NCBI GenBank assembly: GCA_019456075.1
Contig: VRUN01000013.1
Span: 1 to 33,318, forward strand
Length of the DNA: 33,318 nt
From: Candidatus Methylomirabilota bacterium
GTDB lineage: Bacteria > Methylomirabilota > Methylomirabilia > Methylomirabilales > CSP1-5
Direction: 5' to 3'
A program made the translations under genes and the position numbers. Shown here one piece after another: positions 11,599-13,384 of this stretch (position 1 is its first letter; every line of letters begins with the position of its first letter). The notes under the pieces were generated by a model. That model did not search any database, was not told the origin of the DNA, and saw only the letters and a program-made list of their open reading frames with translations.

Positions 11599-11962
11599 TT
11601 AACCTCGCTTCCATTCTCTCGCGGCCATATCATCAATGCATTGGCAATCCAGCGATCTTGTGCTGCCACGGCGCGGATGCCGAAGGCGCGGCATGGCCTG
11701 ACCGTATGCGAATTCCATCGCTTGGGGCTTGGAGAACCTTAGTATCCCTAACTGCACCAGGGGTGTCAAGTCCCTGCGACCGGCAGGTGAGGTCTTTCGC
11801 AGACAGCCCGGCTGTGAGTGAATTTTGTGACAAAAAAGTTCCCATTTCAGGACGACTCGGCTAGAATAAGGCTATTCCAAATCACGTCTGGTAAGGAATC
11901 ACTGGAATCCTCGAAGTTGGACGCGTCTCACGGTAGACCTTCATGGGCGAAAGGAGGGACAT
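11599..11962. other. 364-bp divergent intergenic region
   Basis: This is the spacer between the CBS gene (-) and the selenoprotein gene (+). It holds a candidate + strand promoter (listed separately) and a small inverted repeat ATGCCG/CGGCAT at about 11677-11694. I see no supported coding region. Confidence 0.5.
11839..11867 (+). promoter_or_regulatory. Candidate sigma-70 promoter for the selenoprotein gene
   Basis: TTCCCA (11839-11844) and TAGAAT (11862-11867) are separated by 17 bases. The -10 box is good and the -35 weak. It would give a leader of about 90 bases before the start at 11963. Confidence 0.35.
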
Positions 11963-12550
11963 ATGGCGGCCATTGGTTGGCTCACGCAAATGGACGCAGC
12001 GATAGAGGAGGCAAAGCGGACTCACAAGCCAGTGTTGGTCGATATTTACAAGATACCTGGGTGAGGCGGCTGCATCGCAATGGATGCCGTGACGTATCCA
12101 ATCGCCAATGTCATCAGCTTCCTCACGGACAACTTCGTTTGCGCCCACTTCAACACGGCCGAACCCACGCCCGAGATAAAACAGATTCAACGGTCGCTCC
12201 GTCAAGTCTGGACGCCGACGTTGGTCTTCTTTGACCACCACCAGATCGAGACCCGGCGCTTGGTGGGTTATTTTCCTCCCGAAGAGTTCCTGGCTGAGCT
12301 CCGCTTTGCGCTCGGGACGGTCGATATGCTGCATGCGAAGTACGCGGACGCGTTTACCCGATTCCGCAGCGTCGTGGACGGGTATCCCCAGGCGAAGGTG
12401 GCTCCTGAAGCAGTCTACTGGGCAGGGGTTGCAGCCCTGCAGCGGGATGGAAAGCCTGACCCGCTATTGGACCAATGGCGGGAGCTCCGGGACCGATTTC
12501 CTGAAAGCAGCTGGTGGTCGCGGGCGTCTTTCGTCGCCGAAAAGCTCTGA
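11963..12550 (+). CDS. Thioredoxin-like selenoprotein (UGGC motif) with in-frame UGA at codon 34
   Basis: A predicted 195-residue selenoprotein. From the ATG at 11963, preceded by a strong AAGGAGG (11951-11957), the frame runs MAAIGWLTQMDAAIEEAKRT, then KPVLVDIYKIPG, meets TGA at 12062-12064, and continues GGCIAMDAVTYPIANVISFL to a TGA at 12548-12550. Reading codon 34 as selenocysteine gives U34-G-G-C37, exactly where thioredoxin-fold proteins have CxxC. Sequence on both sides of the UGA belongs to one thioredoxin fold: the beta strand KPVLVDIY before it, and the MDAVTYP helix and cis-Pro strand WTPTLVFFD after it. The C-terminal third (YADAFTRFRSVVDGYPQAKVAPEAVYWAGVAAL) is TPR-like. A hairpin lies immediately after the UGA. 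Ordinary gene calling would start at the internal ATG 12080 and lose the active site. The role is probably a thiol-disulfide/selenol oxidoreductase. MsrB is convergent, 8 bases away. A nonsense mutation or sequencing error is the alternative. Confidence 0.85.
12067..12089 (+). promoter_or_regulatory. Candidate bacterial SECIS hairpin after the Sec UGA
   Basis: Bacterial selenocysteine insertion needs a hairpin just 3' of the UGA, inside the coding region, to bind SelB. Here CGGC (12067-12070) pairs with GCCG (12086-12089), a UGC bulge follows, ATC pairs with GAT, and the apical loop is GCAATG (12077-12082). An alternative fold pairs GCATC (12072-12076) with GATGC (12083-12087) around the same loop. 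The loop starts with G, as in most bacterial SECIS elements, and lies 12 bases after the UGA, slightly closer than usual. Folding was done by eye. Confidence 0.6.
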
Positions 12551-12558
12551 GGGCTGTT

Positions 12559-12960
12559 TCATGAATCCTTTTTCATGAGGTTCAGCGAGACAGAATTGAT
12601 ACAGTATCGCTGACCTGTCGGTGGCGGTCCATCGTTGAACAGGTGGCCGAGGTGGGCGTCACACGCGTCGCACACCACCTCCACCCTTCGCATGCCCATG
12701 TTGTGATCGGGCTCCGTTCGTATGTACTCTGGCGCGATAGGCTCCCAGAAGCTCGGCCACCCTGTGCCTGAATCGAATTTCGTGTCCGAACTGAACAGGT
12801 CGTTACCGCAACACACGCATTGGTAGATCCCATCCTCTTTGCAGTTGTGGTATTCTCCCGAGAACGGCCTTTCCGTCCCCTTCTGCCTGCAGACCTTGAC
12901 CTGCTCTGAGGTGAGTTCCTGCTTCCACTCTTTTTCGGATTTGGATATCTTCTTTCCCAT
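12559..12960 (-). CDS. msrB: Peptide-methionine (R)-S-oxide reductase MsrB
   Basis: A 133-residue MsrB, which reduces the R form of methionine sulfoxide in proteins. All diagnostic parts are present: RPFSGEYHN (about 31-39), the zinc ligands Cys48/Cys51 (CVCC) and Cys97/Cys100 (CDAC), SGTGWPSF (about 64-71), GHLFNDGPPPTGQRYCINS with catalytic Cys120, and the C-terminal SLNL. It is the Cys, not Sec, form. There is no signal peptide, so it is probably cytoplasmic. The ATG at 12960 has a GGGAGGG ribosome site nine bases upstream; an open frame extends further upstream but the extension is not MsrB-like. It converges on the thioredoxin-like selenoprotein, with 8 bases between stop codons. MsrB enzymes are normally recycled by thioredoxin-type proteins, so a functional link is plausible but unproven. 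Confidence 0.97.
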   Translation of the reverse strand: MGKKISKSEKEWKQELTSEQVKVCRQKGTERPFSGEYHNCKEDGIYQCVCCGNDLFSSDTKFDSGTGWPSFWEPIAPEYIRTEPDHNMGMRRVEVVCDACDAHLGHLFNDGPPPTGQRYCINSVSLNLMKKDS

Positions 12961-12979: not shown

Positions 12980-13231
12980 CTACGCGAAACGCTTCGTGAG
13001 CTCGTGATCGATGTGCCACATGGCGCGGCAGTCGTCCTCGTTATACAGAAGGGTCTTCTCAATAATGGCCTCATCCCCGCCGTCCAGATAATCCCAGTAG
13101 CAGACCATCGAGTCAAAGGCATCGAAGCCTTCCTGGCGCCACGTGAAGCCGAGCGCAGGTGCCACGGAGTTCCCGCCCTTCAAACAGAGATGGAGCAGAC
13201 AGACCCGGTGTGCTGCCAGCTCTGGAGGAAT
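12980..13231 (-). pseudogene. C-terminal remnant of a RecB-like (TM0106-type) nuclease gene
   Basis: An open stretch reads IPPELAAHRVCLLHLCLKGG, then VAPALGFTWRQEGFDAFDSM ... DYLDGGDEAIIEKTLLYNEDDCRA and a final HELTKRFA. The LGFTWR ... YNEDDCRA combination is typical of the C-terminal RNase H-like domain of TM0106-family putative RecB-like nucleases, which are several hundred residues long. Only about 84 codons remain. There is no plausible start beyond a TTG at 13183, and two in-frame TAA codons (13232-13237) precede it. This is best read as a truncated, decayed gene. Expression of a short peptide cannot be excluded. Confidence 0.6.
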
Positions 13232-13234
13232 TTA

Positions 13235-13384
13235 TTAGCGTCTTTTCTCCAATTTGGCGCTGGGCTTGGTGATTTCAACCTTGATCCAGTCGGCGGGACC
13301 TTTGCTCTTGCGCTTGCTCCCTTCGTACTTGACCTCGATAATCCAAGTTTTGCTCCAAGAGCTCAACGCGCGTGGACTTGGTAG
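13235..13384 (-). pseudogene. Short coding-like remnant upstream of the nuclease fragment
   Basis: In the same frame as the nuclease remnant but ended by TAA at 13235-13237, a 49-codon stretch includes WSKTWIIEVKYEGSKRKSKG and ADWIKVEITKPSAKLEKRR. It looks protein-like (alternating hydrophobic strands and basic residues) but has no good start codon and an in-frame TGA at 13385-13387. I do not recognise it. It may be the tail of another lost gene or part of the same decayed locus. Confidence 0.35.

Follow-up and report, generated by a model that had tools for sequence, protein, structure and literature searches.

Within the 33,318-nt stretch of contig VRUN01000013.1 analysed here (hereafter the window; Candidatus Methylomirabilota bacterium, assembly GCA_019456075.1), a TGA codon breaks a thioredoxin-like reading frame at the very spot where the active site would lie, which raises the question of whether this codon terminates translation or is read as selenocysteine (Sec). 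Read through, the frame (MAAIGWLTQ...KIPG-U-GGC...VAEKL-stop, with the final stop at 12548-12550; Table 1) has this TGA as its only internal stop (residue 34 of 195), and the codon opens a UGGC active-site motif (U34/C37), in keeping with the first-pass annotation, which had described one thioredoxin-fold frame with a UGA at the start of its CxxC. A plain table-11 call starts at ATG 12080 and gives a 156-aa ORF from which the active site is missing, as that annotation had warned; no AGGAGG-like site precedes this inner start, whereas the strong ribosome site claimed for the longer frame is indeed there, and purine-rich sites also precede the equivalent start in relatives. The truncated ORF matched half of the Pfam Thioredoxin_2 profile (PF13098; 27.9 bits) and the read-through product the whole of it (positions 1-104 of 104; 44.5 bits, E 2e-11, gathering cut-off 27), and this rise in score indicates that homology spans the TGA. 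An in-frame UGA with homology on either side, one of the marks by which bacterial selenoproteins are recognised, is therefore in place, together with the UxxC motif (U34-G-G-C37) looked for in Thioredoxin_2 selenoproteins; the CGPC of a PDB thioredoxin was likewise aligned onto the UGGC site.

Table 1. Features of the putative selenoprotein gene (positions in the window).
Feature	Position	Strand	Basis
Predicted selenoprotein CDS, 195 aa, thioredoxin-like domain and TPR-like helices, stop TGA	11963..12550	+	frame, profile, alignment, structure
AGGAGG ribosome-binding site, 5 bases 5' of ATG	11952..11957	+	sequence itself
In-frame TGA, putative Sec 34	12062..12064	+	column TGA in 23/25 sequences, TGC in 2/25
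Cys37 codon, predicted resolving cysteine of U-G-G-C motif	12071..12073	+	invariant in family alignment
Candidate bacterial SECIS hairpin UGGAUGC-CGUGAC-GUAUCCA	12081..12100	+	folding, conservation, rules of PMC13188914
Thioredoxin-like domain, residues 4-113, DsbD-gamma/DsbH-like	11972..12301	+	profile, alignment, structure
C-terminal TPR-like helices, residues 106-192	12278..12538	+	profile, structure

Homologues with Sec or Cys aligned at residue 34 had been suggested as a check on the Sec reading, and homology searches supplied them. These covered the host's own phylum, 388 genomes drawn from across the bacteria (with a profile) and the phyla of four hits, and they gave 24 relatives that can be read through the active site, share the thioredoxin and TPR-like layout and align across the UGA, 22 as Sec forms and two as Cys forms. 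With the window's gene included, the 25 sequences have TGA in 23 cases and TGC (Cys) in two (G136 and G680), all in one alignment column, a Sec to Cys ratio that is biased upward by a search profile built mostly from Sec forms and by strict cut-offs. The 388-genome search itself yielded one Cys form and, outside the host's phylum, four further TGA forms, and in it Cys relatives matching across the thioredoxin domain alone were common. Such pairing of Sec with Cys at the UGA is another mark of bacterial selenoproteins; moreover, the TGA forms are spread over five phylum-level groups, and the recurrence of the same TGA column in 22 other sequences from five phyla places the observation far beyond chance. 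The host's order contributed a full-length relative (G014: 36-38% identity, TGA at the same position) and its phylum a C-terminal half at a contig end (G017), while G650 and G470 each hold two copies of the family. Residues U/C34, C37, W83, P85, G102, L168 and W184 are invariant in an 18-sequence alignment, and Pro85 (in WTPT) is expected to be the cis-proline. The first-pass annotation had assigned the protein to a selenoprotein class known from Deltaproteobacteria and related groups; the class stood, with one adjustment: the Sec clade with the best sampling belongs to a large phylum that is not the host's, and nothing in the analysed relatives specifically links the Trx-TPR family to Deltaproteobacteria. 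No family member turned up in the viral contigs, phages and plasmids searched, a match in a chlamydial MAG from the genome-contig scan was discarded as one chance hit (i.e. no homologue), and the read-through frames across the window, judged by eye, gave no convincing second Sec candidate. Separately, we observed a related but distinct TGA-interrupted protein (L062, G103:C77:48996-49304; RPG-U-KWC, about 300 aa), whose N-terminus is longer and whose TPR-like sequence is more extensive; its genome encodes a tRNA-Sec.

Lack of selB or selC in the host had been named as evidence that would speak against Sec. All four sel genes were found in its draft genome (1.78 Mb, 93% complete, 102 contigs): selA (600 bits), selB (391 bits), selD (406 bits) and, on the same contig as selB, a tRNA-Sec (76.6 bits, anticodon UCA); the co-occurrence of SelA, SelB, SelD and tRNA-Sec in one genome is also used to recognise bacterial selenoproteins. 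The selD gene (L014; host contig C101:1915-2838, minus strand) is itself interrupted by an in-frame TGA where one is usually found (HGAG-U-ACK), and this, together with the machinery, indicates that UGA is very probably read as Sec at other sites in this organism as well. Across the 16 genomes tested, 15 have a tRNA-Sec above the Rfam cut-off (67-78 bits), including all five tested TGA-form genomes (G014, G118, G126, G155 and G358) and genus mates that are devoid of the Trx-TPR gene; G136, the only Cys-form genome in the tested set, has no tRNA-Sec above this cut-off (best 43.9 bits).

Published rules for bacterial SECIS elements ask for a loop of 3-9 nt, a stem of 4-16 bp, a G in the first two loop positions, a distance of 16-37 nt from the UGA and an energy of -7.5 kcal/mol or lower (PMC13188914). 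The candidate hairpin downstream of the window's TGA satisfies every one of these constraints (7 bp; 6-nt loop CGUGAC with GU at loop positions 2-3; 23 nt from UGA to loop; -7.6 kcal/mol), the bare hairpin lying barely within the energy limit. As its stability is not unusual taken alone (z -0.28 against dinucleotide shuffles), the case for this candidate SECIS is carried by conservation, not folding energy; 4% of synonymous recodings match it. Genes of the window's own type have a GGAURC-NGUNAC-GUAUCC hairpin starting 16-17 nt past the UGA (weaker in G738 and G498), and the large clade has a differently placed one (CUCGGC-UGGAU-GCCGAG, 16 nt past the UGA); loop and spacing of both types fit the published rules, and some own-type hairpins miss the energy limit when folded without their surroundings (PMC13188914). 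In a six-sequence alignment, one member of which (G155) comes from the other clade, pairing within the own hairpin is kept in 97% of cells, as compared to 19-61% with the partner strand slid; the changes are of wobble type only, and this alignment contains no two-sided compensatory change. Furthermore, identity at synonymous codons is highest directly behind the UGA, both in own-type genes (0.66, mean 0.40) and in the large clade (0.89, mean 0.52): the former retain ACG for Thr in 8/8 and TAT for Tyr in 7/8 sequences, even at a GC3 of 0.91, and in the latter GCT CGG CTG and GCC GAG GTG are invariant (13/13). Thirteen sequences from the phylum of G155 (L084-L101), in which codons +4 to +10 past the UGA are near-frozen at synonymous sites, would be well suited to training a model of bacterial SECIS elements. 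The Cys gene of G680 has no such hairpin and that of G136 a weak one elsewhere; an alternative hairpin in the window's gene (GCAUC/GAUGC) was dropped, as it is not kept in relatives.

It could be argued that the UGA encodes Sec by way of some other structure, or of a relaxed SelB, and that the candidate hairpin is no SECIS. The unremarkable stability of the hairpin and the different placement of its counterpart in the large clade would agree with this, but the other own-type genes retain the stem-loop with its loop G and its distance from the UGA, and the peak of synonymous conservation falls across it, which makes such a reading rather unlikely. A more basic objection is that the TGA is an ordinary stop, the real gene being the 156-aa ORF and the 33 codons upstream a product of chance; in its favour, TGA closes 15 of the window's 26 genes, more than any other stop codon, and the selenoprotein gene also ends in it. 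This we consider highly improbable, since alignments to thioredoxin profiles take in the upstream part and those to relatives run from the start codon onwards, AGGAGG precedes that start with nothing comparable before the inner one, and the TGA is kept in 22 relatives and replaced by Cys in two.

The same abundance of genes ending in TGA, the alignment of the position with Cys (not Gly or Trp) and the complete Sec machinery leave a genome-wide reassignment of UGA (e.g. to Gly or Trp) with a vanishingly small probability, even though such codes occur in some bacterial lineages. A TGC or TGT that decayed in a pseudogene, or was misread as TGA, might be suspected, given that the assembly is a draft in 102 contigs and that TGC forms occur in the family (G136 and G680); nevertheless, the same TGA in 22 other sequences makes a sequencing error very unlikely, and its presence in independent assemblies from five phyla, flanked by conserved sequence on either side and directly followed by a stretch of added synonymous conservation, renders this explanation extremely improbable for the window's gene and effectively refutes it for the family. 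Machinery, hairpin and conservation argue strongly for Sec insertion, and we consider that TGA 12062-12064 almost certainly encodes the active-site Sec of a thioredoxin-like protein.

AlphaFold2, supplied with the 18-sequence alignment, predicts a thioredoxin fold followed by TPR-like helices (pLDDT 94.0, pTM 0.90) and has U34 where the active-site helix begins; the C-terminal part gave profile matches to the TPRs of CpoB/YbgF and BamD, and profile and model thus agree with the fold and with the TPR-like extension proposed at first pass. From fold and motif we hypothesize a redox role, a client and a function for the helices: the protein would be a thiol-disulfide oxidoreductase, probably cytoplasmic (it has no visible signal sequence), acting as a reductase in which Sec34 would be the nucleophile and Cys37 the resolving residue. 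During translation, SelB with Sec-tRNA-Sec(UCA) would recognise the hairpin after the UGA, and Sec would be inserted where termination would otherwise occur. The fold and the UxxC motif suggest that the selenolate would attack an oxidised group of the client to give a mixed selenide-sulfide, that Cys37 would resolve it and that a general thiol system would then re-reduce the protein, the TPR-like helices probably holding the client or a partner. We regard this redox mechanism as a whole as probable.

Convergent with the selenoprotein gene, and with 8 bases between the two stops, lies msrB (12559-12960, minus strand; SelR 178 bits, Cys form), whose product is a possible client of the Trx-TPR selenoprotein. 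This neighbourhood was not seen in relatives (by eye), and no conserved gene neighbour pointing to a pathway was seen among them. Located 5' of msrB, an open stretch without a proper start (13000-13270, minus strand; WDYLDGGDEAIIEKTLLYNEDDCRAMWHI) resembles a nuclease/RNase H-like tail and is a probable gene remnant; a selenoprotein MsrA at this place was rejected, as the stretch reads as a nuclease-like remnant.

Among known systems, the window protein shares its Pfam domain and UxxC motif with a catalogued class of thiol:disulfide interchange selenoproteins (PF13098, Thioredoxin_2; example WP_011366075.1; PMC13188914 Table 1), a class binned by domain and motif only (PMC13188914). The best PDB fold matches are DsbH (2ju5) and DsbD-gamma (1uc7, 2fwe and 1vrs; TM by target 0.69-0.80), which are also strong sequence-profile matches; DsbD-gamma, however, is the CxxC domain of a large membrane protein, whereas the window protein has Sec for the first Cys, no membrane part and TPR-like helices behind the domain. 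The chaperedoxin CnoX/YbbN is likewise built of a thioredoxin domain followed by TPR helices and occurs among the PDB fold matches (3qdn and 3qou), but superposes poorly overall on the window model (rmsd about 11-12 A, 12-15% identity), and the CnoX family models did not match the window protein, so it was not counted as a chaperedoxin. Related thioredoxin domains around a Sec site are found in TsoB (NF045694), VPGUxxT (NF041382 and NF041383) and Trx7/PDZ (NF041199); their partner domains differ, as do their Sec motifs (UxxxxU, VPGU and CxxU; PMC13188914 Table 1). Their models match most or all family members weakly; the window protein scores 18-39 bits against TsoB, VPGUxxT types 1 and 2 and Trx7/PDZ (cut-offs 275-805), which places it outside these families. 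No NCBIfam model exceeded its cut-off for the window protein, and the other family members gave the same models only (best E-values 1e-16 or weaker). Within the part of the recent literature that was covered, the 2026 catalogue names no Trx-TPR family, the words 'TPR' and 'tetratricopeptide' being absent from it (PMC13188914). On these two grounds we call the protein a variant of the known UxxC class: Thioredoxin_2 UxxC selenoproteins are already known, and the full-length Trx-TPR form would be a new variant among them.

In the phylogenetic tree the window's gene falls into one group (support 99/97) with G680 (Cys), G738 and G498, which belong to a different phylum; G014, the relative from the host's own order, lies outside this group on a long branch, and none of the genus mates (G008-G013) yielded a family member at E <= 1e-8. 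Given this tree position and the genus mates without the gene, horizontal acquisition is the simplest reading, and the gene was probably acquired in this way. The two Cys forms stand apart on the tree, which indicates that Sec and Cys were exchanged at least twice. More tentatively, and with some doubt, we suggest that these proteins may constitute a distinct stand-alone Trx-TPR oxidoreductase family, hitherto without a name, whose members would normally carry Sec and only exceptionally Cys, which spread horizontally between phyla with two SECIS placements and which might be a selenium-dependent counterpart of the chaperedoxins that reduces particular clients. The Trx-TPR layout is an addition to the known Sec proteins, and one protein family served by two SECIS positions would offer a clean case. 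As full-length Cys forms look rare, a Cys-guided selenoprotein search could overlook the family; moreover, since standard gene calling truncates or misses the Trx-TPR selenoprotein, the family, which occurs in at least five phyla, is likely mis-annotated.
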